In this document: positions 390-26,814 of the stretch, piece by piece
Numbering within the stretch: the stretch's first letter is position 1
How the letters are laid out: every line of letters begins with the position of its first letter
Translations under genes and position numbers: made by a program
Notes under the pieces: generated by a model
What the model was told of the DNA's origin: nothing
Databases searched by the model: none
The model's input: the letters and a program-made list of their open reading frames with translations, nothing else
Virus record (IMG/VR): IMGVR_UViG_3300034160_000084
Coordinates: 1 to 27,182 of that record
Strand: one strand, 5' to 3'
Origin: a virus
DNA: 27,182 nt

Positions 390-423
390 CCCCGCCCCTC
401 GCCTTCGGCGGGATGGATGGATG

Positions 424-464
424 GGCCGCCCCTGGTCTCACACGAGGCCGGGGGCGGCCTTTTT
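424..464 (+). terminator. Rho-independent terminator after zinc-ribbon gene
   Basis: A stem of about 15 bp starting GGCCGCCCC and closing GGGGGCGGCC, with a short CACACG-type loop, is followed by TTTTT at 460-464. Two positions are G-T wobbles here and Watson-Crick pairs in the second copy at 1839-1879, so the stem is conserved. Confidence 0.85.
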
Positions 465-579
465 GCGTTGCGCCAGCACTGCGCGCTACGTCGCCGTGGC
501 CGTGCCCCCGCCGGGCGCCACGGCCGAGCCCGCCGCGTGGGGCAGCATTGGCGGCGGCGGCGGGAGCTGGGGACCGTAG
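463..579 (+). CDS. Putative 38-aa micro-ORF in the duplicated module (copy 1)
   Basis: A TTG codon just after the terminator stem opens a 38-codon frame ending in a glycine run and GGSWGP. The same frame is intact in the second copy (1878-1994). The differences there include Tyr to Phe, Val to Ile and several silent changes, which resembles coding constraint. The only candidate ribosome binding site is the G-rich descending arm of the terminator stem, so translation is doubtful. It could instead be the C-terminal remnant of a longer protein. Confidence 0.3.
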   Translation: MRCASTARYVAVAVPPPGATAEPAAWGSIGGGGGSWGP

Positions 580-587
580 GAAGAGCG

Positions 588-632
588 AAGCCGCCCCCGA
601 TCCTCGACGAGGATCGGGGGCGGCTTTTTTTT
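588..632 (+). terminator. Strong hairpin terminator
   Basis: A 17-bp perfect stem (588-604 with 610-626) with a CGACG loop runs into eight T residues at 625-632. The GATCCT-CGACG-AGGATC centre is identical to that of the terminator at 1737-1776. Confidence 0.9.
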
Positions 633-663
633 GTGCGTCTCTAAACTCGCCTAAAATTGATTG

Positions 664-691
664 TTGACTTTTTCAAATTAGGGTGTACATT
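664..691 (+). promoter_or_regulatory. Sigma-70-like promoter of the moron-type cassette
   Basis: TTGACT (664-669) and TACATT (686-691) are separated by 16 nt in an AT-rich island (about 640-730) that contrasts sharply with the rest of the window. The first gene starts 43 nt downstream of the -10 box. ATTGATT (656-662) and its inverse AATCAAT (704-710) flank the promoter, and GAAATCA is repeated at 692-698 and 702-708, 10 nt apart. These are possible repressor sites. Confidence 0.65.
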
Positions 692-733
692 GAAATCAGA
701 CGAAATCAATCTTAGCTCACAGGAGACACGACA

Positions 734-1051
734 ATGCGGCGCAAGGAAACAACGAACCTCGCGGGAATGCCAGAGATCCGAGTGCAGTTCCACGCCCCGG
801 CCGTGAACGAATACCGCAACCTGACGGTGTGGCTGGTGGACGCGGACGACGCGGAGGCGTGGGGCCTGGCCGAGGGCGCGTGGGCCTACGCATGGAAGGG
901 CCGTGATGCAAGCGGTGGCTACGCAAGCGCCGAGGCCGCCGAGGCTGCGGGCGTGGCTGAGGGGGCGCAGCGCTGGCCGGGCCTGCGGCCGGCGACCGGC
1001 GATGAAGGGGCCTACGCATCGGTGAACGTCATTGACGAGTCGGGGAGGTAG
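734..1051 (+). CDS. Hypothetical 105-aa accessory protein, first gene of plus-strand cassette
   Basis: The ATG follows an AGGAGA ribosome binding site at good spacing, and a promoter lies at 664-691. The protein is small and acidic and shows no signal peptide or membrane segment. Residues from about 12 (PEIRVQFHAPAV) suggest a beta-rich start, and the middle is alanine- and glycine-rich. I do not recognise the family. Its TAG stop is separated by one base from the ATG of the next gene, so the two are probably co-transcribed. The position, on the strand opposite the late genes with its own promoter, suggests a lysogeny-expressed or accessory ('moron') role. That is inference from layout only. 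Confidence 0.75.
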   Translation: MRRKETTNLAGMPEIRVQFHAPAVNEYRNLTVWLVDADDAEAWGLAEGAWAYAWKGRDASGGYASAEAAEAAGVAEGAQRWPGLRPATGDEGAYASVNVIDESGR

Positions 1052-1052
1052 T

Positions 1053-1481
1053 ATGGCGCGAGACAGCGACGGTCGGGCGTCCAACGGCGGCGCCCGGCCG
1101 GGGGCCGGAAGGCTTCCGACATCGATCCCGATCTCCGGCCCTGGCATCATCTACCTGCGCGAGCTGACCCGCTCGCGGCTGGGGCGGCAGGAAGTCACCC
1201 GCAACGAGATGGGCGCGACGATGGAAGAGCTGTTGGGCAGCGAAGACAAGGAGACGACGGCGATGAGCACTGAACAACTTTTCAGGGTGGAGTGGAACTG
1301 CTGGAGATACGGGGAGAGCGAAGAGAGTGGCCACGATCCAAAACTTCGGAGCGGGGAGATTGTGACGGAGGTCGGCCCGAGGTCGGGCGACTCAACGTAC
1401 GTTAAAACACGGGACGGCGCGATCGAGTCCGTTCTTATCTCGTTTCTCGTCCGGCTGCGGACGAAAGTAACCGACGCCTAA
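1053..1481 (+). CDS. Hypothetical 142-aa protein with GGARPGAGR N-terminus
   Basis: I start this gene at the ATG at 1053, because GGGAGG lies directly upstream and overlaps the previous stop. An in-frame start 21 nt earlier would overlap the upstream gene. The N-terminus contains GGARPGAGR, a basic glycine-rich motif found at the start of many phage-encoded proteins, including small terminase subunits and DNA-binding proteins. It is followed by a helical stretch (YLRELTRSRLGRQEVTRNEM) and a C-terminal half with predicted beta strands ending SVLISFLVRLR. The exact family is not recognised. Binding to nucleic acid is plausible but unproven. Confidence 0.75.
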   Translation: MARDSDGRASNGGARPGAGRLPTSIPISGPGIIYLRELTRSRLGRQEVTRNEMGATMEELLGSEDKETTAMSTEQLFRVEWNCWRYGESEESGHDPKLRSGEIVTEVGPRSGDSTYVKTRDGAIESVLISFLVRLRTKVTDA

Positions 1482-1510
1482 GCACTTGAGTAAGCAAAGG
1501 AGAGACAGAG

Positions 1511-1705
1511 ATGACAGAGCAGGAAGTCCAGGCCCTGTACGCGAAGTACGGGGTAACGCCCCCGTCGCAGTTCACGATCGCCCAGCTCGCCGCGTGGGGC
1601 GAAGAGCGCCTACGGGCGAACGCCCATGAGCGGGCCTTGCGGGAGAATCCGGGGTACCGTGCCTCCGATGAGGCGCGGCGATATCTGAAGATGCGCCGCG
1701 CCTAG
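1511..1705 (+). CDS. Hypothetical 64-aa protein, last gene of plus-strand cassette
   Basis: AAAGGAG lies 8 nt before the ATG. The 64-residue product looks helical and charged (TEQEVQALYAKYGV near the start, EARRYLKMRR at the end) and has no cysteines or membrane segment. It lies 29 nt after the preceding gene and is followed by a strong bidirectional terminator, so it closes the transcription unit that starts at 664. Small helical proteins of this kind in temperate phages are often regulators or inhibitors, but there is no specific motif here. Confidence 0.7.
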   Translation: MTEQEVQALYAKYGVTPPSQFTIAQLAAWGEERLRANAHERALRENPGYRASDEARRYLKMRRA

Positions 1706-1731
1706 TCCCCGCCCGCCCCTGACGCGCACAC

Positions 1732-1776
1732 AAAAACGCCCCCCGATCCTCGACGAGGATCGGGGGGCGTTTTTTT
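1732..1776 (+). terminator. Bidirectional terminator closing the cassette
   Basis: A 14-bp perfect stem (1737-1750 with 1756-1769) with a CGACG loop is flanked by AAAAA at 1732-1736 and a T run at 1770-1776, so it can stop transcription from both strands. An outer CGCACAC/GTGTGCG pair (1726-1732 and 1776-1783) extends the symmetry. Confidence 0.9.
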
Positions 1777-1838
1777 GTGTGCGCGCTACACGTCGGCGCG
1801 CATCCAGTCGAGCGCCGCGTAGGCGGGATGGATGGATG

Positions 1839-1879
1839 GGCCGCCCCTGGCCTCACACGAGGCCAGGGGCGGCCTTTTT
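1839..1879 (+). terminator. Terminator hairpin inside module copy 2
   Basis: A perfect stem of about 15 bp beginning GGCCGCCCCTGGCCT, with a short CACACG-type loop and TTTTT at its end. It is the Watson-Crick counterpart of the hairpin at 424-464. Confidence 0.85.
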
Positions 1880-1994
1880 GCGTTGCGCCAGCACTGCGCG
1901 CTTCATCGCCGTCGCCGTGTCCCCGCCGGGCGCCACGGCCGAGCCCGAGCACTGGGGCGCGATCGGCGGCGGCGGGGGCAGCTGGGGACCGTAG
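1878..1994 (+). CDS. Putative 38-aa micro-ORF in the duplicated module (copy 2)
   Basis: This is the counterpart of 463-579, with the same TTG start position, length and GGSWGP C-terminus. It is preceded by a terminator and followed by another terminator at 2013-2051. Conservation of the frame is the main argument for coding, and the lack of a clear ribosome binding site is the main argument against it. Confidence 0.3.
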   Translation: MRCASTARFIAVAVSPPGATAEPEHWGAIGGGGGSWGP

Positions 1995-2012: not shown

Positions 2013-2051
2013 ACGCCCCCCGATCAGCAGTGCCGGTCGGGGGGCGTTTTT
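2013..2051 (+). terminator. Terminator facing the end of the minus-strand operon
   Basis: ACGCCCCCCGATC (2013-2025) pairs with GGTCGGGGGGCGT (2035-2047), with one wobble, and is followed by TTTTT. The T run is on the plus side only, so it ends plus-strand transcription before the convergent minus-strand gene that stops at 2056. Confidence 0.8.
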
Positions 2052-2055
2052 GTGC

Positions 2056-2427: not shown

Positions 2428-2777
2428 GATATTCCTATGATGCTCTCGACGACGAATCGCACCTGCTCGGTATAGGGGCTGTCGGCCCCGAGCAGACTAT
2501 CGCCATAGGTGCCGGTGAGGGCCAGCAGGCGCGGCACGTAGCGCCGGCCGCTTTCGCGCGAGAGGACTTGCAGATCATCGCCGTGCAGCACGATCAGCAT
2601 CGACTCTGCGAGCGGGCTGACGGCCGCGGCCGACCGGCCGTTGATCACCGTTCCGTCCTCAGCCGTCAGGGTATAGGTGAGCGCGGTGGGCGTGACGGCC
2701 ACCCCGGCGCTGTCGGTGATCACCACGGTGATCCCCGCCGATCCGCGCTCTTTGGCCTGGCCTGCCAGGGTGATCAT
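2424..2777 (-). CDS. Small beta-sandwich phage tail-region protein
   Basis: The 117-aa product starts behind GAGGAGG. Residues 15-80 read as alternating strands (GITVVITDSAGVAVTP, ALTYTLTAEDGTVIN, MLIVLHGDDLQVL) of the Ig-like type common in phage accessory structural proteins. The C-terminal half (RYVPRLLALTGTYG, QVRFVVESIIGI) continues the beta pattern. It sits between the large repeat/LamG protein and the secreted protein, overlapping the latter by 4 nt. It is likely a tail-tip or fibre-associated component, and the specific role is unknown. Confidence 0.7.
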   Translation of the reverse strand: MITLAGQAKERGSAGITVVITDSAGVAVTPTALTYTLTAEDGTVINGRSAAAVSPLAESMLIVLHGDDLQVLSRESGRRYVPRLLALTGTYGDSLLGADSPYTEQVRFVVESIIGIS

Positions 2778-2787
2778 AGACGCCTCC

Positions 2788-4521
2788 TCATGCGGGCAGC
2801 TCCAGGGCTGCGGTGGTGCGAGGGGTGACGAGGTCGGCCGCGGCCGATGGGCCGATCAGGGCGGCCGATAGGGCGAGCGGGCCGACGAAGAAGATCGCGC
2901 CGCCCACGACGGTTGGGCCGCGAGCGATGAGCACGACGACCGCCGCGCCCGGGCTAACGCCTAGGCTTCCGGCCACCACGCTCAGCCCCTGGCCCGAGAG
3001 CGTCGCCAGCGCGGCCCCAGGGGCGAGCCCCAGGCCGCCCAGGATGATCGCTGTCGGCCCCTGCGCGGTGAGCGCGGCCACCCCCGCCCCGGCTGTGAGC
3101 GTGACGCCGCCCCCGAGCACTGTCAGGCCCTGGGGCGACAGGGCGGCTGTGACCGCGCCGACAGCCAGCGCGAGCGACCCGGCGACGGTCGTCAGCCCCT
3201 GCCCGCTCAGACTTGCCGAGGCCGCCCCAGGCGCGAGCGCGAGGCTACCCGCGATCACGTTCGGCCCCTGGCCGCTCAGGGCCGCCAGCGACGCGCCGGG
3301 GCTGATGCTCAGGGCGCCGAGTACCGCCGCCGATCCCTGTCCCGACAGGGCCGCAAGCGCGGCGCCCAGGTCGATCGCCACGTCGCCGCCCGCCTGCACC
3401 GTCGGCCCCTGCCCCGAGAGCGCGGCCCCCGCCTGGCCAGGGCTGACGCTCAGACTGCCCAGGACGACCGTCGACCCCTGGCCGCTCAGTGCGGCGCTCG
3501 CGGCCCCAGGCGACGGTGTGAGGCTGCCCAGGACCACAGCGAGCCCCTGCCCGCTCAGGGCCGCCGCTGCGTGGCTCAGGGCCAGCGTGAGGCTCCCCAG
3601 GAGCGTGGCCGGCCCCTGGCCACTGAGGCTGGCCAGGGCGGCGCCTGGCGCGATGCTCAGGCCACCCAGGATGACCGCAGTCGGCCCCTGGCCGCTGAGC
3701 GCGGCCTGCGCCTGGCCGGGGCTCAGGCTGAGCGACCCGGCGATCACCGCCGTCGGACCCTGTCCCGACAGGGCCGCGAGCGATGCGCCGGGGCTGATCG
3801 TGAGGCTGCCCAGGACGATCGCCGTTGGCCCCTGGCCTGACAGGGTGGCGGTTGTGCTGCCGGGGGTGACGGTAATGTCACCCCCGGCCGCCGGGATGAT
3901 CGGGATGACCACCCCGCGCGCCCAGCGCAGCGGCGGCCCGTCCTCGTCCGTCAGCGTCCCGCCCGCGGTCAGCGGCCGGTTGTTGCCGCTGTGATCGTGC
4001 AGCCGCTCGGTCCCAGGCAGCAGCGGGTACCAGGCGTTGAGGTTCGCCCAGCGCGCCGGGCGGGCGCTGCGCATCTCGCGGGCGATCTCGGCCGCGGTGA
4101 GCGCGACATCCCAGATCTTAACGGCTGCGATGCAGCCGTTGAGCCAGTCCGCATCAACGGTCGTGCCGAGATAGATGACCGCGGCGGGCGTGGCATTGTA
4201 GGTGCCCGTGATGTCGAGCACCGCGTCCTTATAGGCCAGGACGCTCGTACCGTTTGAAACGAGCGCCAGATGGTACCAGCGCCCGACCACGAGCGCAGAG
4301 CCTGAAGTGTCGGCGCTGTTATCGTACAGTGACAGCGTCGTGCCGTCGCTGCCCGTCTGGAGCACGTTCGACCCACCCGCGTTGCCGTAGGTAAAAAACG
4401 TCGAGAAGGCATTCCGATCGGTCGTGATCTTGACCCAGCCCGCGATCGTGTAGCTCGTGGCCGGGGGGAGGCCAGTCGTTCGGGAGAGCGCATCGGCGCT
4501 GGCATCGAGCCTGACGGCCAT
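2788..4521 (-). CDS. Tail fibre/adhesin with LamG-like domain and 23-residue repeats
   Basis: The protein is 577 aa. Residues about 25-150 have the LamG/concanavalin jellyroll pattern: YTIAGWVKI, RWYHLALVSNG, then NGCIAAVKIWDVALTAAEI near the end. This is a carbohydrate- or ligand-binding fold often found in phage tail fibres. Residues about 217-541 are roughly 14 degenerate repeats of 23 residues with the core SPGAAxAALSGQGPTxxxG. A 36-residue tail ends the protein. The repeats should form a regular elongated, beta-rich shaft. The location at the distal end of the tail genes fits a receptor-binding or host-surface adhesin. The LamG call is fairly secure, and the fibre role is inferred from context and architecture. 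Confidence 0.8.
   Translation of the reverse strand: MAVRLDASADALSRTTGLPPATSYTIAGWVKITTDRNAFSTFFTYGNAGGSNVLQTGSDGTTLSLYDNSADTSGSALVVGRWYHLALVSNGTSVLAYKDAVLDITGTYNATPAAVIYLGTTVDADWLNGCIAAVKIWDVALTAAEIAREMRSARPARWANLNAWYPLLPGTERLHDHSGNNRPLTAGGTLTDEDGPPLRWARGVVIPIIPAAGGDITVTPGSTTATLSGQGPTAIVLGSLTISPGASLAALSGQGPTAVIAGSLSLSPGQAQAALSGQGPTAVILGGLSIAPGAALASLSGQGPATLLGSLTLALSHAAAALSGQGLAVVLGSLTPSPGAASAALSGQGSTVVLGSLSVSPGQAGAALSGQGPTVQAGGDVAIDLGAALAALSGQGSAAVLGALSISPGASLAALSGQGPNVIAGSLALAPGAASASLSGQGLTTVAGSLALAVGAVTAALSPQGLTVLGGGVTLTAGAGVAALTAQGPTAIILGGLGLAPGAALATLSGQGLSVVAGSLGVSPGAAVVVLIARGPTVVGGAIFFVGPLALSAALIGPSAAADLVTPRTTAALELPA
2899..3873 (-). repeat. About 14 tandem 69-bp coding repeats in the fibre gene
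   Basis: The repeats encode the 23-residue unit with the LSGQGP core. Unit length varies by a residue, and the last units (nearest 2899) are the most diverged, with LSGQG becoming LSPQG, LTAQG and LIARG. The array is prone to expansion or contraction by slippage. Confidence 0.8.
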
Positions 4522-4530
4522 AGCGATTTC

Positions 4531-5007
4531 CTACGCCTGGAGGCGGATCGGGAGAATCTTCAGCACGTTGCTCGACGACGCGAACGCGACGGCCGCCCGG
4601 TTGACGATGAGAAGCTTCAGCTTGCTGGGCGGCATGCGAATGAGTGGTTCCGCGCTGCCGTAGCCGCCCGCGCCGAGGATGAGGCGCTGCGCTGTCGTCT
4701 GGGCGCGAGCCACCACAAACGAGCCGACCAGCGTGGCGCTGCCCTGGGTGGCGGCGCTGGCGCCGGTCGTGCCCTCCGCATAGTTGGTGCCGTCCATGGC
4801 GGTCAGCAGGTGCACGTCGACCAAGGCGCCGACGGCGGGATTACTGGCGAACCCGACGAGCAGCTCCAGGCTGCCCCAGAGGTAGAGCGCGGTTGAGCCG
4901 CTGTTGTCGAACTCATCGCTCAGCGCGCCGGCGTTGGCGGCCAGGCTGTTGAGCGCGGTGGTGGCGATGCTGGTGAGCGTGCCTGCTTCGAGCTTTTGAC
5001 TGGCCAT
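4531..5007 (-). CDS. Phage tail-region structural protein (unassigned)
   Basis: The 158-aa product has a threonine/alanine-rich N-terminus, then ALYLWGSLELLVGFASNPAVG and VDVHLLTAMDGTNYAEG. This reads as a jellyroll-like beta protein of the kind found next to tail fibre genes. It ends with hydrophobic strands (KLKLLIVNRAAVAF, NVLKILPIRL). The start lies 3 nt after the upstream stop, and the gene precedes the LamG/repeat protein by 9 nt, so the two are likely translated together. A baseplate, collar or fibre-associated role is inferred from position. Confidence 0.7.
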   Translation of the reverse strand: MASQKLEAGTLTSIATTALNSLAANAGALSDEFDNSGSTALYLWGSLELLVGFASNPAVGALVDVHLLTAMDGTNYAEGTTGASAATQGSATLVGSFVVARAQTTAQRLILGAGGYGSAEPLIRMPPSKLKLLIVNRAAVAFASSSNVLKILPIRLQA

Positions 5008-5010
5008 GTC

Positions 5011-5448
5011 TTACCCCGTCTTCCAGTCTTTGCTGCCCAGGATCTTCACGTTCATCGGCGCGTAGCCCTGGGCAAGATGTAGCAGCTCGATGCACCAGCC
5101 GCGCACGATCTCCAATGCCTCTTTGCGTACGGCGAGCAGCTCGGCGTCGGCCGGGTCGTTGGGGTTGAAGGCCGTGTAGGCCCGCTGGGCAATCTCCCAG
5201 ATATCCCGCTCGGCGCTGCCCGCTGCGGCGATGAGCGCACCTGCTTTGTCGACATACATCGTGAGGCTGGGCGGGTGCCCCTGGCCGTTGAGCACAGCCT
5301 GGATGTGGGCGATGGCCGCCGGGTAGGCGGCGTCGGCGTCGACCGCGTAGCCGGGCACCGGCGCGGCGTCACCCTCGGCGCTCATACCCAACGCGTCGAG
5401 GCCGCGGCCCTGGAAGTCGTAGGGGGTGACATACTGCATGATCTGCAT
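5011..5448 (-). CDS. Hypothetical 145-aa protein in tail-tip cluster
   Basis: The start is preceded by AAGGATCACGCA. The first 60 residues are mixed, and the C-terminal half is helical (DPADAELLAVRKEALEIVRGWCIELLHLAQGY). No motif or membrane segment was found. The gene sits between two beta-rich tail proteins in one operon. It could be a chaperone or assembly factor for the neighbouring fibre, but there is no sequence proof. Confidence 0.65.
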   Translation of the reverse strand: MQIMQYVTPYDFQGRGLDALGMSAEGDAAPVPGYAVDADAAYPAAIAHIQAVLNGQGHPPSLTMYVDKAGALIAAAGSAERDIWEIAQRAYTAFNPNDPADAELLAVRKEALEIVRGWCIELLHLAQGYAPMNVKILGSKDWKTG

Positions 5449-5479
5449 TGCGTGATCCTTCTTGCGTGTCTCGGCGGCG

Positions 5480-5935
5480 TCAGGTGAGCCGCGCTTCGGC
5501 GTTCTGGAGGGTGAGTGTTTGGCCTACGCTCACCGTGCGGGCGCTGGTGAGGTCCCAGCCGATCTCAACCTGACGGCTGCCCACCGTGCCCTCATTGGTC
5601 GTGAGCACCGCCCAGGAGGCGCCGCTGCCCGAGCCCGGCAGCGAGCCGCCCGAGGCAGTCCACACCAGATCGCGCAGCTGCACAAACGCATAATCGTTCG
5701 TATCGTCCTCGGTATACACGTCCATATCGGTGGCGCCTGGCGTCAGGCTGATCCCGCCGGAGGTGTAGCCGTTGCCTGCGGCGATCTCGGTGAGCTCGCT
5801 CAGGGTGTTCGTGTCCGCCGTGGGGGCGGCGGCGGCGGTGCAGAGCGCAACATAGTAGGCGGCCGGGGCGCTCACCCCGCGATAGCTGCGGCCGAGCGTG
5901 TTGTACTTCCCGCGGTTGGTGGCGACATTGGCCAT
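5480..5935 (-). CDS. Phage tail protein of the GKY-RG-SAPxAYYVAL family
   Basis: The 151-aa product opens with RGKYNTLGRSYRGVSAPAAYYVALCTA and continues TADTNTLSELTEIAAGNGYTSGGI. This is a pattern I associate with a widespread small phage virion protein encoded near tail fibres. The rest is beta-rich (VGQTLTLQNAEARL at the end). AAGGAG lies upstream, overlapping the hub gene's stop. It probably forms part of the tail tip or attaches a fibre, with moderate confidence. Confidence 0.7.
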   Translation of the reverse strand: MANVATNRGKYNTLGRSYRGVSAPAAYYVALCTAAAAPTADTNTLSELTEIAAGNGYTSGGISLTPGATDMDVYTEDDTNDYAFVQLRDLVWTASGGSLPGSGSGASWAVLTTNEGTVGSRQVEIGWDLTSARTVSVGQTLTLQNAEARLT

Positions 5936-5946
5936 GGCAGGGCTCC

Positions 5947-7713
5947 TTAGCTGGGGATGAGGCCCTGCGCGATCAGCACGTCGAGCAGGGGCAGCGGGGT
6001 CTCTGGCACGACCGACGCGCGGCCGGTCATGCCGTCGTAGGTCATCTCCGAGACGGTAAACGAGCGGATGCGGTCCACGAACGTCCCGGCGCTCAGAGCT
6101 GGCAGGTTGCGGATGACGATCGTGTCGCCGGGCCGCACCCGGTCGCCGGACACGATCGCCCCGTTGGCGGTTTCGATCTGGCGGATGCCGATGCTGGCCG
6201 CCGGCTGCGGGTCAGCCCGGTCAGACAGCGCCAGGTCGCGGATGCGCGCAGCCAGCGTCGCATTGGAGGTCTTCGCCGCCACCGTGCCAACCCGGATCAG
6301 GCCGTAGTCGGCCTGGCTGAGCGGGTCGTTGGCCACGGCGGTGCGCCGGGCGCGCTCGCTGGCCGGGTCGTCGTAGGTGGCGTACACGCGGTTTTCGACC
6401 GCTGAGATCGGTCGCTCCAGCTCCATATTCTCCAGGCGCACGTACCAGGTGCGGGCCGCGCTGCCCTTCGGCCGGAAAAACAGCCGCCGAAACTCATCCA
6501 CCCCGGTCTCGATCTGCCCGCCCGCCCCGTCGCCGCGCGCGGCCAGGTCGTCGAGCACGTCGGCCGGCAGCGCGTCTTCATAGACGGCGTCGGTGAGATC
6601 CATGGTAGTGGGTGCGATCGGGGTGAGGTCGTCGACGATCGTCCCGCTGTTGAGTGCCACCGCCTCGGCGCGGAGGGCGGTGGCGATGGTCGAGCCAAGC
6701 AGGCGGTGGCCCTGCACGGCCAGGCCGCTGAGCTTGTTCCAGGTGAGGTCGGCGATCACCAGGTGGGTGGCGTCGGTGATGCTGACGACCGTCACCATCT
6801 GGCTGTCGACGTTGCCACTGTCGATGACGAGCTGCTGGCCGACGTACATCCCCGCCGTGCTGCCCACGGTGAGCGTGACGTTGGTTCCACCGACCGCGTT
6901 GGCGGTGAGGGTGGTATTGATCCGGTTGGTCGTGTCGCTGACCACGCGCAGGTCGCTCACGCGGATGTTTCCCACGCCATCCTCTGCGCTGTTGGTGATG
7001 GGGCTTCCGCTGCTGTTATAGAGATAGAACTCCAGCTTCTGCGCGCTGGCAAACGTGAGGTGGTAGGCGCGCGTCCCGCCGGTCGCCCCGGGGACGTACG
7101 AAACAATGGCGGTTGCGCTGCCCCACGCGGCATCGAGCGTGATGAAGCCGAGCTCGAACCCCGCCGGCAGGGCGTAGGTCAGGGTGAACTGGGCCCCCGT
7201 GGCGCCCCGGCTGCCCTGATCGGGCAACTCCAGCACGAGCGAGCCGATGCGCGCCGACGTGGGGTAGGTGATGCCCTTCTTCAGGCCGATGAACAGCCGA
7301 TTGTTCGTATCGGTGATCCAGGCCGTGCTATCCCGGATGGCGATGTCCTGCGGCGTGGTCGGTCGCCAGGTGTCATAGCGCGTTGAGCTCCACAGGGCCG
7401 TGTGTCGCCCGTCGCGCAGCGCCTGCCAGTTGCCGAGTGCCCGCACGGTGAGCTGCGTGCCGCTGCCGTCCATGCGGATGCTTGCCGTATCCAGGCGGCC
7501 AGACCAGAGGACCTGGCCGCCGCGCAGGGCGACGACGAAGGGCGCGCGGCGGGCGCGGTAGAGCGCGAAGATCGCGGCGGCCCGGCGCGGCGCGCTGATG
7601 GTGAGCGCGCGCGCGCCGTGGGGGCCATAGTCCCAGCTCGCCTCCGTGGCGATGTCGCCGAGCATGGCGGCGATCGACCCGCCGTCCACAATGGCCAGGG
7701 TGATCGGCTGCAT
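5947..7713 (-). CDS. Tail hub / baseplate-type minor tail protein
   Basis: I place the start at the ATG at 7713 (MQPITLAIVDGG), 2 nt after the upstream stop with a CTGGAG site in front. An upstream in-frame extension would run back through the preceding gene. The product is 588 aa. Residues 1-100 (ISAPRRAAAIFALYRARRAPFVVALRGGQVLWSGRLDTA) match the hub pattern of siphovirus tail proteins that form the ring under the distal tail protein. The central part contains beta modules (TVGSTAGMYVGQQLVIDSG). The C-terminus (RIRSFTVSEMTYDGMTGRASV) is typical of hub/tail-endopeptidase-like proteins. The order, directly after the distal tail protein, supports this. No peptidase or lysozyme motif was seen. 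Confidence 0.75.
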   Translation of the reverse strand: MQPITLAIVDGGSIAAMLGDIATEASWDYGPHGARALTISAPRRAAAIFALYRARRAPFVVALRGGQVLWSGRLDTASIRMDGSGTQLTVRALGNWQALRDGRHTALWSSTRYDTWRPTTPQDIAIRDSTAWITDTNNRLFIGLKKGITYPTSARIGSLVLELPDQGSRGATGAQFTLTYALPAGFELGFITLDAAWGSATAIVSYVPGATGGTRAYHLTFASAQKLEFYLYNSSGSPITNSAEDGVGNIRVSDLRVVSDTTNRINTTLTANAVGGTNVTLTVGSTAGMYVGQQLVIDSGNVDSQMVTVVSITDATHLVIADLTWNKLSGLAVQGHRLLGSTIATALRAEAVALNSGTIVDDLTPIAPTTMDLTDAVYEDALPADVLDDLAARGDGAGGQIETGVDEFRRLFFRPKGSAARTWYVRLENMELERPISAVENRVYATYDDPASERARRTAVANDPLSQADYGLIRVGTVAAKTSNATLAARIRDLALSDRADPQPAASIGIRQIETANGAIVSGDRVRPGDTIVIRNLPALSAGTFVDRIRSFTVSEMTYDGMTGRASVVPETPLPLLDVLIAQGLIPS

Positions 7714-7715
7714 GG

Positions 7716-9143: not shown

Positions 9144-9151
9144 CATGTCTC

Positions 9152-11560: not shown

Positions 11561-11968
11561 CTAGGGGGCCTCCATTCGCACGACGTGCACGCCCTGGGAC
11601 GCGAACCAGGCGGCCGCGGCCGCGGGGTCGCGGGCGACAAGCGGCGTGGGGACGCGCGGGATGATGCCCTGCGGCTCGGTGGCGGCGCGCAGCTGCTGAA
11701 AGAAGGCGCGGCGGTCACCGTCCTTCAGGTGCGGGGCGACGGCGGCCGTAGCGGTGCGCCGCAGGTCCTCAGCCTCGACGGCCGCGAGCTCGCTCGTGAG
11801 CGCCTCGATCGCCCAGAGCGGGGCCGTGATCACGCCGACCCCGTAGGCGCGGACGAGTCGGGCGAGGGTCTGCTCGGCGGTGTAGGCGCGCCCGCCCCCT
11901 GCACCGCCGCCGTTTCCCCCGGCGGTGGCGCGGGCTGCTGGGCGTTCCACCACTCGATCAGCTTCCAC
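11561..11968 (-). CDS. Tail assembly chaperone T-like reading frame (made as GT by -1 frameshift)
   Basis: This frame is in -1 register relative to the upstream chaperone gene and overlaps its 3' part (11830-11968). It has no good start of its own: the in-frame GTG at 11968 lies inside the upstream ORF without a ribosome binding site. It is therefore probably expressed as the C-terminal half of a fusion. The slip would occur at the GGGGGAA run (11920-11914), where Gly GGG can re-pair one base back and the next codons become GGA AAC. The fusion would have about 241 residues, of which the last 118 come from this frame (GNGGGAGGGRAYTAEQ to VRMEAP). It ends directly at the tape measure start, as in lambda-type G/GT pairs. 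Confidence 0.75.
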   Translation of the reverse strand: MEADRVVERPAARATAGGNGGGAGGGRAYTAEQTLARLVRAYGVGVITAPLWAIEALTSELAAVEAEDLRRTATAAVAPHLKDGDRRAFFQQLRAATEPQGIIPRVPTPLVARDPAAAAAWFASQGVHVVRMEAP

Positions 11969-12285: not shown

Positions 12286-12322
12286 AGGACTCCTGGGGAT
12301 GGACGGATGGGGATGGGGCGGC

Positions 12323-12886: not shown

Positions 12887-12895
12887 AGCGGCTCC

Positions 12896-13721: not shown

Positions 13722-13833
13722 CGGCGGCCTCCCGCTCCTTCAGATACTCCAGCAGCGCCTCCAGGTCGACGTACACGCGCCCGCCCACGCTGACGCGCGG
13801 GAGGCTATCCAGATCCTTACGACGCACGGGCAT
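13642..13833 (-). CDS. Small hypothetical protein with strong ribosome binding site, overlapping the gp10-like gene
   Basis: The 63-aa ORF has AAGGAGG 6-7 nt before its ATG, stronger than most in the window. Residues 1-35 (RRKDLDSLPRVSVGGRVYVDLEALLEYLKERE) look like a folded small domain, while the last 28 residues, which overlap the gp10-like gene by 80 nt, are alanine/glycine-rich and less convincing. It fills what would otherwise be a 95-nt gap between two coupled genes. Its role is unknown. Confidence 0.55.
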   Translation of the reverse strand: MPVRRKDLDSLPRVSVGGRVYVDLEALLEYLKEREAADADVPADLAGAGAAGKGHARGRQGAE

Positions 13834-14194: not shown

Positions 14195-14195
14195 G

Positions 14196-14534: not shown

Positions 14535-14544
14535 ACAGGGCTCC

Positions 14545-15030: not shown

Positions 15031-15033
15031 GGG

Positions 15034-15321: not shown

Positions 15322-15356
15322 GAGGTTCTCCGGGGGTCATTGCCGTGGCGCATCGC

Positions 15357-15650: not shown

Positions 15651-15655
15651 ACAGG

Positions 15656-18731: not shown

Positions 18732-20786
18732 TCAGTCTCCGAAGTGCGGGGCGGCACACCTGACACAGTTCGGGTGCTGGAGCGGGTTGGCCTTGAACCA
18801 GGCCAGGGTCTGGATCGTGCCGTTGAGCTGGTTGCAGGCGTCGTCGCTATCCTCGCTGCCGCCGTCAAGGATCTGCACCTGGTCGACCCCGGCGTCGGTA
18901 TAGCGCTGGTGGGTCGCCACGTTCTGCGCCGTGCCCAGCTCGGTGCGGGCGATGTTCCTGGCCCGCCCGGCGTAGCTCTGGGCCACCGTGGCGCGCAGGC
19001 CGGGCCGGGTGTCGTCGCCGCGCACCAGCTGGTCAACGCTCCAGCCCTGCTCGGCGCCGTACTGGAGCAGCTCGCGCACGGCTGTCAGGGTCGTGTCCGT
19101 GATCCCGCCGATGCGGTCGCCGGCCTGGGCCAGCGCGGCCACCACGGCCGGGTCGCTCTCATCGAAAGCCAGCTCCACATCGATCGCGCCGTTCCAGGTC
19201 TCCCAGGAGGCCTTGAGCACCTCCAGGGTGAACAGGCGGAAGATCCCGCCCAGCTCCAGCCCGTCGGCCGGCAGCAGCAGCTGGGCCGCCAGCGGCAAGC
19301 GCTTCTCGGCCCGCGCCTTGCCCACGTCCTCGGCCCGCGCCACCACCGTCTCGGCCAGGCCCTCGAAGAAGGCGCTGATGCGCGGCTCCATCTTCTTGGC
19401 CGCGGCCGCGCGCACCCGCTGAAGCGCCCGGGCGGTGCGCGCGGCTGCGGCCTTGGCGTCGTGAGCCTTGGCGTCCGGGGCGGGCAGGGCCTTGGGCGGC
19501 GTGGCCTGGCCGTCGATGATCTGGGCTGGCGCAACTAGGACCTGGGCGAAGGGCACGAGGTCGCGCGAGATCTGGACCACGAACAGGTCGCGCGGGTCGG
19601 GGTCGGTCGTGATGCCGAGCTGCGCCCGGCTCTCATAGAAGCCGATCAGGCCACGGTCGTAGCCGCCGTAGATGCGGTTCGCGCGCGCCGCCGCGTCCTC
19701 CTGGAGGGCGGCCACGCGGCCGAGGAAGTGCCGCACGCTCACGCCGTTGCCGAAGTCCGCGGCCAGGCCGCTCTGGATCGCGCTCTCGAAGCGCCGCCAG
19801 AGCGGGACGCGCGTATCGGTGGTGAAGCGGGCGCTGGCCTCCTCGCTGTTGGCGTAGGTCGGGTCCTCGCCCAGCCCGGCCACGGGAGAGGGGACCTTCA
19901 TCACCGCGCAGATGTGCCGCTCGGGCATGTCGTGCAGGGCCGAGAAGTCAAGCTCCGAGGCGCTCAGGCCGAGGCGCTGGATGGTGGCGCCGGCCTCCAG
20001 GATGGCCACGCCGCCGCGGTTGTCGCCACCGTGCATCGTCGCCCACTCGGCCCGCATGCGCTGGCGCTCCGGGCCGGTGAGCGCCTGCTCGGCGCTCTGG
20101 GTGATCACGGTGCGCGGGATCGCGTCGTTGGCCAGCAGCGCCCCAACAAAGCGCGTCGCCTCATTCACCGCGTCGATATCATAGGCCGCCGCGAGGATGG
20201 GCGGCTGCGCCTTCCAGGGCGCGTGCGGGTCGACGCTCGGCCACTGGAAGTGGATCACGTCCGCTTTGTCGACGGGGATCTCCTCCCCGTTGGTCTGGCG
20301 GAACATGTAGTGGCTGACCCACGTTCCCGAGTTGTCGTCGAGGCCGTCGGCGTCGTCGACGGGCACGGCGCGGAACACCCCGTCGTGGTAGGGGCGCAGG
20401 CCAATCACCTGGCGCGAGCGGTTGCGCAGCTTGTAGATGTAGCAGTTGCCGCCGATTGCGGCCCAGGTGATCACCTGGGCCTTGAAGGCCACCTCGTCCT
20501 GATCGACGTTCGGGCGGAGCATCAGCTTGCGGATCGGGTGGTTCGGGATGGGCCGGGCATTGTCGTCCTCGCCGTCCCAGACCCACAGGGGCGGCTCGGG
20601 GAAGGTGAAGGCGTGGGCCTCCACGCAGGCGAAGTACGCCGCGGCGCGCTTGTAGCCCTGGTTCACCAGGCCTTGGAATGCGCCACTGAGCGCGGTGCGG
20701 GCGACCCAGGTCGGCATGTATTGCCACTGCATGCTCTTGCCGAGGAGCACAGCCACGGCGTAGCGGGCGCGCGTAAGGAGGCGCAT
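18732..20786 (-). CDS. Portal protein fused to a Mu F / SPP1 gp7-like domain
   Basis: The 684-aa product has the HK97-type portal sequence in its first 430 residues: an N-terminal clip, then YKLRNRSRQVIGLRPY, ADVIHFQWPS, VGALLANDAIPRTVI and KVPSPVAGLGEDPTYANSEEA. After an alanine/lysine-rich linker, the last 80 or so residues (about 605-684) carry ARNIARTELGTAQN and end in QHPNCVRC, the signature of minor head (MuF) proteins. In most phages these are separate neighbours, so this is a fusion. The portal dodecamer forms the DNA gate, and the fused domain would give 12 copies inside the head. The gene overlaps the upstream stop by one base. Confidence 0.9.
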   Translation of the reverse strand: MRLLTRARYAVAVLLGKSMQWQYMPTWVARTALSGAFQGLVNQGYKRAAAYFACVEAHAFTFPEPPLWVWDGEDDNARPIPNHPIRKLMLRPNVDQDEVAFKAQVITWAAIGGNCYIYKLRNRSRQVIGLRPYHDGVFRAVPVDDADGLDDNSGTWVSHYMFRQTNGEEIPVDKADVIHFQWPSVDPHAPWKAQPPILAAAYDIDAVNEATRFVGALLANDAIPRTVITQSAEQALTGPERQRMRAEWATMHGGDNRGGVAILEAGATIQRLGLSASELDFSALHDMPERHICAVMKVPSPVAGLGEDPTYANSEEASARFTTDTRVPLWRRFESAIQSGLAADFGNGVSVRHFLGRVAALQEDAAARANRIYGGYDRGLIGFYESRAQLGITTDPDPRDLFVVQISRDLVPFAQVLVAPAQIIDGQATPPKALPAPDAKAHDAKAAAARTARALQRVRAAAAKKMEPRISAFFEGLAETVVARAEDVGKARAEKRLPLAAQLLLPADGLELGGIFRLFTLEVLKASWETWNGAIDVELAFDESDPAVVAALAQAGDRIGGITDTTLTAVRELLQYGAEQGWSVDQLVRGDDTRPGLRATVAQSYAGRARNIARTELGTAQNVATHQRYTDAGVDQVQILDGGSEDSDDACNQLNGTIQTLAWFKANPLQHPNCVRCAAPHFGD

Positions 20787-21309: not shown

Positions 21310-22743
21310 CTACCCTCCCCGTCTAATGCGGCTCACGATATAGCGCAGCGCCGCGTGGTGGTGGTACTTCGACTCGTCGGCGATCGTCTCGGTGGGCTCG
21401 CCGTCGGCGTCGACCTGGCGGTGATAGTCCTGCAGGTCCCCGATCAGCCCGACCAGGTCGTCGAAGATAGTCAGCCCGCTCTTCTTGATGGTGGCGTAGA
21501 CGCGGGCGATCTGGATCTCGACCTCCTTCACGTCGGGGCCGTTGACCGGCAGGGCGACCTCCTTGCCCTTCACGGTCCCGCCCTTGCGGAACTCCATGCG
21601 CCACTGCCCTTCGGACTTCGACCCGCCGATGCAGAAGGGCACCTCCGGCTCGCCCTCTAGGATGTAGTAGCTGTGCTCGGCGGCCGTGCGCTCGCCGGCG
21701 TGGTACTCGCGGTAGGCGTAGAGCCGCTCTGACCCTGGCTCCTCGGCGAGCAGGATCGCCGCCGTGTTCACGCCGCCGAAGTCGAGCCCGCAGTAGCGCA
21801 GCCAGCTCGCCGGGATGCGGAAGCGCGGGCAGGTGTGCACCGCCGTATCGAAGCAGTCGTAGATCAGCCCGGCCGGGCGCTCGTAAATGCCGCGGTAGCG
21901 CTGGTTGAACTTCCACACCGGCATCGCCGCCCGCAGGCGGTCGAACTCCTCGGGGCTGAACTCCGGGTTGTCGGTGCTGTCGAACTGGATCACGTCGATC
22001 TCAGGGTGGCGCCGCTCCGCCTTGACCCAGGGGTCGTAGAAGGTGCTCTTGAGCGCGCCCAGGTCGTAGATCGTCGTGGTGATGAGCAGCCGGCCGCGGG
22101 CGACGGCCACACGGGCCTGGGCCTCGTCGAGGATCTCCTGCGTGTAGTTGCGCGCCCCGGCCTCGTCGAGCCAGCCGGCCCGGGCGGTGGCCGAGGCCCA
22201 GCCGGTGGCGCTATCGGCCGAGCGCAGGATGATCCGGCCCCACATCGCGTCGTCGGCCCGCTCGGCCCAGAACTGCCCGGTGGTCGGGTCGCGCAGCTCG
22301 ATGATGCGGTCGCCGCTCCAGTAGCGCCCCCAGCCCAGCCGCCGCTCGAACCAGTCGCGCAGGGCGGGCAGCATCTTCAGCTTGAATAGGTCGAAGGTAG
22401 CCGTGCCGGCGATGTAGTCATTGTTGCCGGCGGGGTCGGCCGTGCGCTCGATCTCCTGGCTCAGCCACATCGGGCCGTAGGAGGTCTTGCCGCCCTGCTT
22501 GCCAGCCAGCACGACCGTGAAGCGCTTCTGGCCAGCATGGGCGGCCCGCTGGCCGGCGTGGGCGCGCAGCAGCAGGCCGCCGGCCTCATCGTGGTCAATA
22601 AGCGGACGGCCGGGGGCGGGCTCGGCCAGGGCGACGACGGGCAGGCCGAAGGCCGCACGATCACGCTCCGTCTGATCGGTCGCCGCCGGGCTGGCCGGCC
22701 AGTCGGTCGCCGAGAGCGAAGGCAGATCGATCGAGGTATTCAC
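21310..22743 (-). CDS. terL: Terminase large subunit
   Basis: I take the GTG at 22743 (MNTSIDLPSL) as start. The longer frame is the shadow of terS, which overlaps by 83 nt. The 477-aa product has a Walker A AGKQGGKT at residues 80-87, a Walker B WLDEAG at 191-196, and the nuclease-domain start GLDFGG with Asp321. The C-terminal motif reads HHHAALRY, where many relatives have an acidic residue (DALRY), so the third metal ligand may be shifted or missing. The enzyme packages and cuts DNA at the portal. Confidence 0.9.
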   Translation of the reverse strand: MNTSIDLPSLSATDWPASPAATDQTERDRAAFGLPVVALAEPAPGRPLIDHDEAGGLLLRAHAGQRAAHAGQKRFTVVLAGKQGGKTSYGPMWLSQEIERTADPAGNNDYIAGTATFDLFKLKMLPALRDWFERRLGWGRYWSGDRIIELRDPTTGQFWAERADDAMWGRIILRSADSATGWASATARAGWLDEAGARNYTQEILDEAQARVAVARGRLLITTTIYDLGALKSTFYDPWVKAERRHPEIDVIQFDSTDNPEFSPEEFDRLRAAMPVWKFNQRYRGIYERPAGLIYDCFDTAVHTCPRFRIPASWLRYCGLDFGGVNTAAILLAEEPGSERLYAYREYHAGERTAAEHSYYILEGEPEVPFCIGGSKSEGQWRMEFRKGGTVKGKEVALPVNGPDVKEVEIQIARVYATIKKSGLTIFDDLVGLIGDLQDYHRQVDADGEPTETIADESKYHHHAALRYIVSRIRRGG

Positions 22744-23104
22744 CCAGGGTTGCCAGGTCGGCGGCTGATTGCCGGTCCAGCCAAGCGGGGTTCTTTGCCG
22801 CCGTGGCGATCGCCTGGGAGGCTTGGAGCTTTGCGCGAAGGAGGTCAAGGATAAGCGCTCCGATCGAGTGCGAGGAGGCCAGCGCCGGAACCGCGACGGG
22901 CAGATCCTCGGGTGCATCCGTGGATGCATAGGGGGGGGCGTCCGGATGCATGCCGGGTGCATCCGCATCCAGGCGCGAGGCCCAGCTCTTGACCGTGTTG
23001 CGGTTGAGTCGGTAGCGCGCGGCCACCTCCGCCGGTGTGTCGCCGTCGAGCAAGTCGGCAAGCGCGGCGGCCTTGATCTCCGGGCTGACGGTGGGGGCTG
23101 GCAT
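22661..23104 (-). CDS. terS: Terminase small subunit
   Basis: The 147-aa product has a helix-turn-helix at residues about 9-45 (IKAAALADLLDGDTPAEVAARYRLNRNTVKSWASR). A low-complexity His/Pro/Asp linker (MHPDAPPYASTDAPEDL) joins it to a helical oligomerisation half (IGALILDLLRAKLQASQAIA). It overlaps terL by 83 nt. The linker is encoded by a cluster of TGCATCC repeats that could be the packaging site. Confidence 0.8.
   Translation of the reverse strand: MPAPTVSPEIKAAALADLLDGDTPAEVAARYRLNRNTVKSWASRLDADAPGMHPDAPPYASTDAPEDLPVAVPALASSHSIGALILDLLRAKLQASQAIATAAKNPAWLDRQSAADLATLGEYLDRSAFALGDRLAGQPGGDRSDGA
22911..22970. repeat. TGCATCC/GGATGCA repeat cluster, possible pac site
   Basis: TGCATCC is at 22913-22919 and 22958-22964, its inverse GGATGCA at 22922-22928 and 22944-22950, and GCATCC at 22965-22970. 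They flank a run of eight G at 22931-22938. They lie inside the small terminase gene, where P22 and SPP1 carry their pac sites. Confidence 0.5.
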
Positions 23105-23966: not shown

Positions 23967-24276
23967 GGTGCGGCGCCCCCACGTAGACATTCACCGTGAT
24001 CACGTCGCGCCCGGCCACCGGCCCCACGGTCAGATCGCCCAGCTGGGCCTGGCCGAGGTCGAGCACCGCCTGGCGCAGCTCGGGAGTGGCGCTGAGCGCC
24101 GGCCCAGCCGCCTCGGCCGAGAGCACCCCGCCGGCGACCGCGCCGAGGATGCGGTCGAGCAGCGGCGCCCGCGTGTCGAAAGCGGTGGCGACACCGGCGG
24201 CGTTGCGGGCCAGGCTAAGCGTGACCTGGTCGCCGGCCAGGGCCGCCGCGATCAGCAGGCGGTAGGGCTCGCTCAC
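23956..24276 (-). CDS. Hypothetical 106-aa protein, after endolysin
   Basis: The GTG at 24276 overlaps the endolysin stop by 4 nt and has GGGGGAGG upstream. Residues about 4-60 are hydrophobic and alanine-rich (YRLLIAAALAGDQVTLSL, LDRILGAVAGGVLSAEAAGPALS), and the C-terminal part has strands (RDVITVNVYVGA). One weak membrane segment is possible. The longer in-frame extension upstream is the shadow of the endolysin gene. A lysis-related role is inferred from position only. Confidence 0.6.
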   Translation of the reverse strand: MSEPYRLLIAAALAGDQVTLSLARNAAGVATAFDTRAPLLDRILGAVAGGVLSAEAAGPALSATPELRQAVLDLGQAQLGDLTVGPVAGRDVITVNVYVGAPHHDD

Positions 24277-25523
24277 CGGCGTGCCTCCCCCAGCAGCGCG
24301 TTCGCCGTGTCGGCGATGCGCGCGCCATAGTCGTCGCCCGGCACCGCCCAGCCCGCCCAGTCGCGCCGGGCGCGGCCCAGGTTCACGGGGTTGTGGGCGG
24401 CGCCCAGGGCGCGCAGCGTCGCCACGCTGCCCCACAGCTCGCTGGGCAGCGGGCGGCAGGCCTGCGCCCAGCGCGCCAGGGCCTGCTGATCGGGCGTGCC
24501 GCTGATGCCCTGGGTGTAGAGCAGCAGCCGGCCGAGGTGCGCCCGCACGGCATATTCCCAGCTGGGGAAGCTCAGGCCCTCGGCCCAGCGCCCGTCGGGC
24601 CGCTGCGCCCAGGTCCCGATCGCCACGCCGTCGACGACGCGGCCGATGCTGGCCAGCTTCGTCGGCTGCGTGCGCCCGGTCACGCCGAGGCCGGCCGGGT
24701 TGCGCCGGGGCCGCTGCGCCCACCAGGAGCTCAGCGGCCACCAGGAGCCGCCGGGCTGCTGCGCGCTTGTCTCATGCACCGCCTGGGCCCAGGCGAGATC
24801 GGCGTTGAGGCCGACGCTGGCGGCGTAGCGCCAGTAAAACGTGGCGATAGTGCGAAGGTCGTAGAGGATGTAGAGGCTGCCGCGACGGATCACGGCCATG
24901 GCGGCCTGCTCAGCGCTCAGCGCGGCCGACCCGGCCAGGCCGCTGAGCTCGGTGTAGGCCCGGGGCGCGGGCGCCCCGGGCGGCAGGGGCGTGGCCAGCT
25001 GACGGGCGAGCTGGGCGCGCACCCAGGCCATATCGATCGCCCTGCCCGGGCAGCTCTTCGGCGAGAACTCATGGTGGGCGCGCACCGTGCCGGCGTCGGC
25101 CGACAGCGACCGCCAGCGCAGCAGCGCCGCGCCCGCGCCCAGGGCCAGGGCGGCCACCTCGGCGGGCCAGGGGGCGGCGTCGTAGTCGCCGACGATCTCC
25201 AGGCCCCAGCTCCAGCTGTTGGCGCTCCCGGCGTGGACGCCGGGCAGGTTGAGCGGGGTGAGCTGCCAGATGCCGTCATCGGCGGGGTTGGGCGCGCCGG
25301 CGACGATCAGGAGGTGCGGGCCGGCGTCCCAGCCCTTGGCGGCGTAGAACTGCGCGAGGTTGGCCATGCTGGCCTGACCACGCCACTGCGCAGCCGTGGG
25401 GCGCCAGGTATGGTGGTAGACGACGCCGACCGCCCAGCTGGCGATCTGCGGGTCATAGGCCGCGAGGTGGGCCTCGAAGGCGGCGAGGGTGGGCCAGTGG
25501 CGGATGTCGGCGGCGAACGACAT
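24273..25523 (-). CDS. Two-domain endolysin (amidase plus glucosaminidase-like)
   Basis: I take the ATG at 25523 (MSFAADIRHW), behind GGGAG, because it lies after a promoter-like element. The 416-aa product has an N-terminal amidase_2 domain with zinc ligands His37/38 (VYHHT), His150/151 (AHHEF) and Cys158 (KSCPG). This family cuts the N-acetylmuramoyl-L-alanine bond. The second half (residues about 195-415) contains AWAQAVHETSAQQPGG with Glu251 as a likely catalytic acid, as in glucosaminidase-type peptidoglycan hydrolases. No signal peptide was seen, so release through a holin is expected. Confidence 0.85.
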   Translation of the reverse strand: MSFAADIRHWPTLAAFEAHLAAYDPQIASWAVGVVYHHTWRPTAAQWRGQASMANLAQFYAAKGWDAGPHLLIVAGAPNPADDGIWQLTPLNLPGVHAGSANSWSWGLEIVGDYDAAPWPAEVAALALGAGAALLRWRSLSADAGTVRAHHEFSPKSCPGRAIDMAWVRAQLARQLATPLPPGAPAPRAYTELSGLAGSAALSAEQAAMAVIRRGSLYILYDLRTIATFYWRYAASVGLNADLAWAQAVHETSAQQPGGSWWPLSSWWAQRPRRNPAGLGVTGRTQPTKLASIGRVVDGVAIGTWAQRPDGRWAEGLSFPSWEYAVRAHLGRLLLYTQGISGTPDQQALARWAQACRPLPSELWGSVATLRALGAAHNPVNLGRARRDWAGWAVPGDDYGARIADTANALLGEARR

Positions 25524-25560
25524 CGGGGGAGCTCCCGGGGTTGTGGTAGGTAATCGACCT

Positions 25561-25624
25561 GGGGCGCGCGGTGCATGACAAACGACTTCGAGGGCCTTAC
25601 GCTTGCCGCGCGCCCCGAAGTCGT
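25561..25624. repeat. Interlocking inverted repeats upstream of the endolysin
   Basis: GGGGCGCGCGG (25561-25571) pairs with CCGCGCGCCCC (25606-25616). ACGACTTCG (25582-25590), lying in its loop, pairs with CGAAGTCGT (25616-25624). As RNA this gives a pseudoknot-like or mutually competing pair of helices in the endolysin leader. Confidence 0.5.
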
Positions 25625-25630
25625 ACCGAA

Positions 25631-25640
25631 AGTATAGCAC
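25631..25640 (-). promoter_or_regulatory. Extended -10 promoter-like element upstream of the endolysin
   Basis: GTGCTATACT on the minus strand is identical to 18289-18298. No convincing -35 box is present. It lies 108 nt before the endolysin start, in a 168-nt gap. Confidence 0.5.
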
Positions 25641-25691
25641 AGGCGATCTACCGGTGGAGATGACAGATCGATTATCGCCCACCCGCCCCGA

Positions 25692-26684
25692 TCACCACTG
25701 CGCGCCCAGCTTCTCGGCGGCGGCCCGGAGCGCCTCATCGCCGCGCCGATCATAGCGCGCCGTCGTCGCCACGTTGGCGTGGCCGGCCAGGCGCGCGGCC
25801 ATGGCGATATCCACGCCGCGGTCGAGCAGCTGCGAGATGTAGGTGCGCCGCAGGTCATGGGGTGTCGCTGTGGGGATGCCGGCCTCGGCGCAGCGGCGCA
25901 GCAGCACGAAGCGCACCGCCGCCGGCGTGAGGCGTCGGTCGTCGAGCAGGCGGCCGGTGCGCGAGATGGCGACGAAGAGCGCGCGGGCCGAGGTGTGCGC
26001 GCACACCTTCCGCCACACCCGCACCAGCTGGGCGGCAGCGTCGTGCAGGTAGACCACGCGATCCTTGGCGCCCTTGCCGCGGCGCACCTGCACCCGCACC
26101 TGGTCGCCCTCATCGATGAGGTCGCGCCGGTCGAGGGCGCACAGCTCGGCCCGCCGCAGCCCACCGGCGACGCCTACGGCGATGATCGCCGCGTCGCGTC
26201 GGCCGCGCGGGGAGGCATCGGCCGCACAGGCCCGCATGAGCGCGCTGAGCTCGGGCCGCGGGAGCATGCGCCCGCGTGCCGGGGCCTCGCCGCGCACGCG
26301 CGGGATATCGACCAGCTGCGCGTGCTGATCTGAGGTGAGCAGCCCCAGCCGGCGGCAGGCCAGGAACACGCCGCGCAGGGCGGCCAGCATGCGGTTGGCG
26401 GTGGCGGGGGCATAGCGGTCCACCAGGCGCGCCCGCAGCGCCGCCACGTGCGTGTAGTGCAGCTGCGCCCAGGGCAGGCTGAGCGGGTCGCTGTGGCCGA
26501 GGATCGCCGCCAGGGCCTTCAGGGCGGCGCGCTGCGTGGGCTGCGAGCCCTCGGCCAGGCTGGCCAGGTAGACCGCCGCCGGCGACGGGGGCGGCGGGCG
26601 CCGGGCCAGGGGCAGATCTGACCCTTCCGAGAACAAGAGTTCTCGATCCTGTCGCGTCCTGATGCGATCGGCGAGACGGCTCAT
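25692..26684 (-). CDS. int: Tyrosine recombinase / phage integrase
   Basis: I start at the ATG at 26684 (MSRLADRIRT), with GGGAG in front. The longer frame runs back through the dyad at 26712-26742. The 330-aa product has an N-terminal core-binding domain (about 34-130) and a catalytic domain with Arg177 (GGLRRAEL), Lys204 (RRGKGAKDR), His276 and Arg279 (HDLRRT), His302 (GHAN) and Tyr311 (TARYDRR). All six catalytic positions are present, so it should be active. It catalyses site-specific integration and excision. No arm-binding domain is obvious. The gene reads with the late genes. Confidence 0.95.
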   Translation of the reverse strand: MSRLADRIRTRQDRELLFSEGSDLPLARRPPPPSPAAVYLASLAEGSQPTQRAALKALAAILGHSDPLSLPWAQLHYTHVAALRARLVDRYAPATANRMLAALRGVFLACRRLGLLTSDQHAQLVDIPRVRGEAPARGRMLPRPELSALMRACAADASPRGRRDAAIIAVGVAGGLRRAELCALDRRDLIDEGDQVRVQVRRGKGAKDRVVYLHDAAAQLVRVWRKVCAHTSARALFVAISRTGRLLDDRRLTPAAVRFVLLRRCAEAGIPTATPHDLRRTYISQLLDRGVDIAMAARLAGHANVATTARYDRRGDEALRAAAEKLGAQW

Positions 26685-26711
26685 GCGGGGCTCCCGGGGG
26701 GAAGGGGCGAC

Positions 26712-26742
26712 GGGCAAAAGCCAATATTTTTGGAATTTGCCC
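26712..26742. other. AT-rich dyad: attP core or operator candidate
   Basis: The 13-bp arms GGGCAAAAGCCAA and TTGGAATTTGCCC match except at two positions and flank a 5-bp TATTT centre. That is the geometry of a tyrosine-recombinase core with inverted binding sites around a short overlap region. It lies 27 nt upstream of the integrase. No second copy was found in the window. Confidence 0.45.
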
Positions 26743-26755
26743 CTGCTGATCGCCA

Positions 26756-26782
26756 CGGCCCCCACTGATGCAGTGGGGGCCG
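26756..26782. repeat. Perfect 12-bp hairpin CGGCCCCCACTG upstream of the integrase
   Basis: CGGCCCCCACTG (26756-26767) pairs perfectly with CAGTGGGGGCCG (26771-26782) over a 3-nt loop. There is no T run on either side, so it is not an ordinary terminator. A protein-binding operator or att arm is possible. Confidence 0.6.
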
Positions 26783-26814
26783 CTGACACAGGGCTATGGT
26801 AGCACGGGGGTCAA

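Follow-up and report, generated by a model that had tools for sequence, protein, structure and literature searches.

The term moron originally denoted an entire transcription unit that a phage genome had gained, and morons have since been described as accessory transcription units for SPP1 and lambdoid phages (PMC6316719). The ESAS/SAS repeats of cluster K mycobacteriophages, on the other hand, contain promoters and are found upstream of gene starts (PMC11373665). Here we describe a phage locus that resembles each of them in part. Like phage morons, it holds a unit of short, homologue-less genes with a promoter-like site and bracketing terminators, and this unit has a lower GC content and sits at an operon boundary; the likeness is read from sequence, with expression and independent acquisition of the unit being putative. 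Unlike the terminators of morons, those that bracket this unit lie in a duplicated 173-nt segment with a conserved spacer. Like ESAS/SAS (PMC11373665), the segment (hereafter the block) is a repeated intergenic phage sequence with a 17-bp inverted repeat. Unlike ESAS, it is a terminator with a T-tract at operon ends, and no promoter-like site of the kind that marks ESAS was found inside either copy. Lastly, it shares with tandem intrinsic (Rho-independent) terminators a GC-rich stem of at least 17 pairs with a T-tract behind it, and the placing of two or three such hairpins in a row at operon ends, whereas the conserved 92-nt spacer with its open frame is an addition to that arrangement. We favour, with a probability of roughly 0.55, reading the block as an intergenic segment for transcription termination that has been duplicated and brackets an insulated, moron-like accessory unit.

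The window, by which we mean the whole stretch of DNA analysed, is an entire IMG/VR virus record of 27,182 bp that is classed as linear. Its leftward genes span about 2056-26789. At the other end a rightward gene finishes at 389, upstream of the first copy of the block, and the following features lie between the two.

407..579, plus strand: block copy 1, 90.2% identical to 1822-1994, gap-free, with sharp ends
423..464, plus strand: T1, terminator-like hairpin of 17 pairs with a 4-nt loop and a T-tract, inside copy 1
463..579, plus strand: open frame of 38 codons with a TTG start, inside copy 1, LRCASTARYVAVAVPPPGATAEPAAWGSIGGGGGSWGP, coding doubtful
587..631, plus strand: T2, terminator-like hairpin 3′ of copy 1, with a core common to T3
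640..733, plus strand: AT-rich leader (36% GC) with a sigma-70-like promoter sequence, TTGACT-16-TACATT, at 664-691
734..1051, plus strand: ORF of 105 aa in the accessory unit, no family match
1062..1481, plus strand: ORF of 139 aa in the accessory unit, no family match
1511..1705, plus strand: ORF of 64 aa in the accessory unit, no family match above the cut-off
1729..1780, no single strand: T3, palindromic and terminator-like on either strand, with the same core as T2
1822..1994, plus strand: block copy 2, the pair of copy 1
1838..1879, plus strand: T4, terminator-like hairpin and T-tract, inside copy 2
1878..1994, plus strand: open frame of 38 codons with a TTG start, inside copy 2, LRCASTARFIAVAVSPPGATAEPEHWGAIGGGGGSWGP, coding doubtful
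about 2013..2054, plus strand: T5, terminator-like hairpin 3′ of copy 2, a diverged relative of T2 and T3

An earlier note on this DNA had reported two blocks of equal length and about 90% identity, with 17 substitutions and no indels, and alignment bears out each of these figures. The copies, of 173 nt each, are 90.2% identical (E = 4e-65 by BLAST within the record) and are separated by 1,242 nt. Outside both ends identity is at background level within the first 10 nt. Both copies open with GGCGGGATGGATGGATGG, continue with the 17-pair stem, its CACA loop and the T-tract, and terminate on a TAG at which the homology stops exactly. Substitutions are skewed along the block, with 2 in the 5′ 81 nt against 15 in the 3′ 92 nt (Fisher p = 0.002), so that most differences fall where a peptide would be encoded. 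Moreover, the 27 nt 3′ of the hairpin are 100% conserved between the copies. The better-conserved part of the block is thus the terminator together with these 27 nt, and not the C-terminal codons of the frame. Two types of repeat known from elsewhere were set aside: those of diversity-generating retroelements, as the differences are not confined to A positions, and a tRNA-linked attachment site, as there is no tRNA.

The copies lie 1,415 bp apart and have exact stretches of 29 to 43 nt in common. Since the window is a metagenomic contig and stretches of this size suffice for k-mer joins, we considered whether the assembly had fused two related loci into a chimera at near-identical stretches of 37 nt or 29 nt. 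Both copies have distinct and complete flanks, they differ by 10%, and GC content and gene layout are consistent on either side; we regard an artefact of this kind as very improbable.

In both copies the stem of the block (T1 and T4) comprises 17 pairs, 13-14 of them G-C, and is followed by a T-tract of five, as in a Rho-independent terminator. This reading of the hairpin is well supported, with termination itself being predicted. Two substitutions fall inside the stem and both leave it paired (T-G versus T-A, and T-G versus C-G), which agrees with the earlier claim that the stem is kept by wobble/Watson-Crick exchange; under random placement, the chance of at least two stem substitutions of which none breaks a pair is 0.013. 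A further terminator after each copy had also been claimed, and was recovered as T2 and T5, which begin about 10-20 nt past the TAG of their respective copies. The 27-nt hairpin core of T2 recurs unchanged in T3 (1740-1766), and the corresponding stem arms of T5 differ by one mismatch, hence the duplication of the border extends past 173 nt. Almost all of the strong terminator-like hairpins of the window sit at its repeat-bearing end: there are 10 terminator-like matches in 1-2600 (1.5 expected from shuffles), 8 in 2600-22500 (4.8 expected, mostly short stems) and 0 in 22500-27182. A search with a covariance model built from the 5′ 81 nt of the block recovered, within the window, only hairpins of the T1-T5 type, and relatives gave no significant match. 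We also observed that the halves of the GTGTGCGC/GCGCACAC palindrome flank T3 (1724-1784), forming a 30-bp near-perfect inverted repeat around the terminator.

The invariant 27 nt after the hairpin and the end of homology on a TAG exceed what a plain terminator needs. One reading of that invariant stretch, and of the hairpins that delimit each segment, is a structured regulatory RNA (antitermination or small RNA) lying between the two hairpins, and the whole segments do give fold z-scores of -7.4 and -5.6 against shuffles. However, the 120 nt between the hairpins fold like shuffles (z -0.55 and -0.30), with neither strand better, so the signal of the whole segment is due to the terminator hairpins. 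As there is moreover no match in Rfam, we regard a structured RNA as very improbable.

Between the copies, the leader spans 94 nt and has 36% GC, compared with 71% in the rest. Its promoter-like site at 664-691 agrees with the consensus at 9 of 12 positions, a consensus match alone, and is the sole such site in 1-2600. The unit as a whole (640-1735) has 63% GC versus 71% in 2056-27182, and differs from the phage in base composition. Past its last ORF it is followed by T3, T4 and T5, as judged by sequence criteria, and on the right it adjoins the convergent late operon, the first gene of which ends at 2056. None of the three ORFs has a meaningful match in Pfam, PHROGs or NCBIfam; in single searches, no relatives were found for the 105-aa ORF among viral contigs and phages, nor for the 139-aa ORF among phages and Chloroflexia genomes. 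Lower GC, ORFs on the plus strand and the lack of a homologue in these searches are as expected for an accessory insert.

Insulation of this unit is favoured by the arrangement itself: two copies of the block, each led by a hairpin and accompanied by a second one, bracket a rightward three-ORF unit that has its own leader. Duplication, arrangement and composition are direct observations, upon which we place hairpin termination and promoter function as predictions from the sequence. We propose that T1 and T2 would stop transcription from the rightward gene ending at 389 before it reaches the unit, and that transcription of the unit would start from the promoter-like site at about 664-691. T3, T4 and T5 would then end the transcripts of the unit before they collide with the late genes, while T3, acting on the minus strand, may stop leftward late transcripts. 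The shared terminator border may have been copied when the unit was acquired, or later. Moreover, homologous recombination between the direct repeats (29 to 43 nt exact, 1,415 bp apart) could delete or amplify the unit. The locus was found in no other phage, and so no "empty site" was seen that would prove insertion of the unit. If the proposal is right, the locus would be a clean example of a phage accessory unit with a duplicated terminator segment on both borders, and would suggest a route by which accessory units gain transcriptional insulation.

Against a duplicated terminator stands the observation that, of six frames, the one of the putative peptide has the best codon score in both copies (0.09 and 0.14; GC3 0.89/0.92). 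The block might then be a duplicated micro-protein gene of 38 codons (from the TTG after the hairpin) or 52 codons (from ATG 421/1836), for which the downstream hairpin would serve as terminator. Its zero indels, the homology that stops on the stop codon, the terminator past each stop codon and the multi-base differences in neighbouring codons (GCCGCG/GAGCAC) that leave the frame intact all fit such a gene. So do the exchanges of Tyr/Phe and Val/Ile; these, and the four silent changes that had been noted with them, are present as described, among 10 changed codons in total. The suggestion drawn from them, that a peptide is being conserved, is weakly supported. All three forward frames are free of stops in both copies, and the probability that a random 38-codon stretch is open at the composition of the window is about 0.72; because GC-rich DNA leaves frames open by chance, an open frame is weak evidence for a peptide. 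The codon score is borderline, at about the 5th percentile for genes of this phage (0.134) and the 95th for wrong frames (0.092). A dN/dS comparison, which had been suggested as a check, gave 0.58 (Nei-Gojobori) on the two copies; with about 6 synonymous against 9 non-synonymous changes, there is no significant synonymous excess (Fisher p about 0.23). There is no Shine-Dalgarno-like sequence upstream of the TTG, and the 52-codon version begins within the 17-bp hairpin. The N-terminal codons, which lie in the hairpin half of the DNA, hold two differences and the C-terminal codons hold most changes.

The suggested homologue search for the 38-aa frame likewise found none, be it by peptide patterns, by the DNA motif of the C-terminus or by tblastn in phages and plasmids, and a peptide profile run over 400 Chloroflexota genomes returned noise-level matches only (E 3e-4 or weaker per genome). 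The block may, as was also proposed, be the C-terminal remnant of a duplicated gene, although no parent gene was found among the proteins of the window or its relatives. A gene on the minus strand was ruled out by a stop in the only plausible reverse frame of copy 1. Taken together, we consider a micro-protein gene unlikely, and the more specific proposal that both copies encode a new Gly-rich, Trp-ending peptide (~38 residues, ...GGGGGSWGP) of a Chloroflexota phage, made from a terminator-bracketed mini-transcript, decidedly unlikely. Most probably, GC-rich spacer DNA between the tandem terminators has left the 38-codon frame open as a by-product. If so, the locus would caution that, in very GC-rich DNA, the conservation of an open frame is weak evidence for a micro-protein.

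A fixed length, sharp borders, a hairpin and two copies in intergenic DNA would also suit a small non-autonomous mobile element (MITE/REP-like) that had inserted twice, and a mobile regulatory cassette had been suggested previously. The searches give that suggestion no support. No third copy was found in the contig, in its relatives, or in 158 Chloroflexia and 249 other class-mate genomes, and no relatives of the block were found among viral contigs, phages, plasmids and several hundred Chloroflexota genomes. An exact 23-mer of the block had no match in genome contigs. The exact core CCTTTTTGCGTTGCGCCA occurs in viral contigs as a single match, in L050, where it lies within an unrelated HNH-type ORF and was rejected as chance. 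These searches used exact short patterns or BLAST over limited genome sets. The count of two copies, as opposed to the many of MITE/REP-like elements, refers to the sequences scanned. Furthermore, inspection by eye showed no terminal inverted repeats or target-site duplications in the flanks of the blocks. Overall, a mobile element appears highly unlikely. Repeats of the same kind were also sought in prophages of Herpetosiphon, Anaerolineales and a groundwater Chloroflexi MAG with none found, the one candidate, in L051, being an unrelated coding repeat.

The window is a fragment of a tailed phage that is kin to Chloroflexota prophages, including those of Herpetosiphon. The genes that place it are as follows.

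18732..20786, minus strand: portal protein
21310..23061, minus strand: large terminase
24273..25682, minus strand: endolysin with an N-terminal Amidase_2 domain
25692..26789, minus strand: tyrosine integrase

Most relatives of the terminase, which are 41-48% identical to it, belong to Chloroflexota (Herpetosiphon species, Caldilineaceae, Anaerolineae and other Chloroflexi MAGs). The order of terminase, portal, head-tail connector and tail genes is common to the window, the Herpetosiphon loci L013-L015 and the Anaerolineales MAG locus L021. The closest relatives at the DNA level are the viral contigs L005 (83-88% over aligned stretches) and L006 (72-77%), contigs of 5.6-6.1 kb that stop short of the repeat-bearing end; the more distant prophages are not alignable there. 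Searches with the ORFs at 734-1051, 2424-2777 and 4531-5007 and with the integrase found no relatives in viral contigs, and no close host genome was found. From the terminase relatives and the shared gene order, the host is probably a Chloroflexota bacterium.

Several further observations were made along the window. The prophage-like regions L013, L014 and L015 (Herpetosiphon species) and L021/L051 (Anaerolineales MAG) are syntenic with the phage in head and connector genes. The endolysin (24273-25682, minus strand) has a weak C-terminal glucosaminidase-like match and is possibly a two-enzyme lysin. A tail-end protein (2788-4521, minus strand) with no family match carries about a dozen repeats of 23-24 residues, of the type SLxxxPGAAxAALSGQGPTVVLG. 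Lastly, a perfect 14-bp palindrome, GTGTGCGCGCACAC, occurs in 3 copies, at 2001-2014, 15635-15648 and 25993-26006 (0.43 expected, even with two mismatches allowed); one copy lies directly past block copy 2 and another between two late genes. A palindrome of the same type is present once in the related contig L005, near position 301. It may serve as a binding site, or be a palindrome that is frequent in this particular host.
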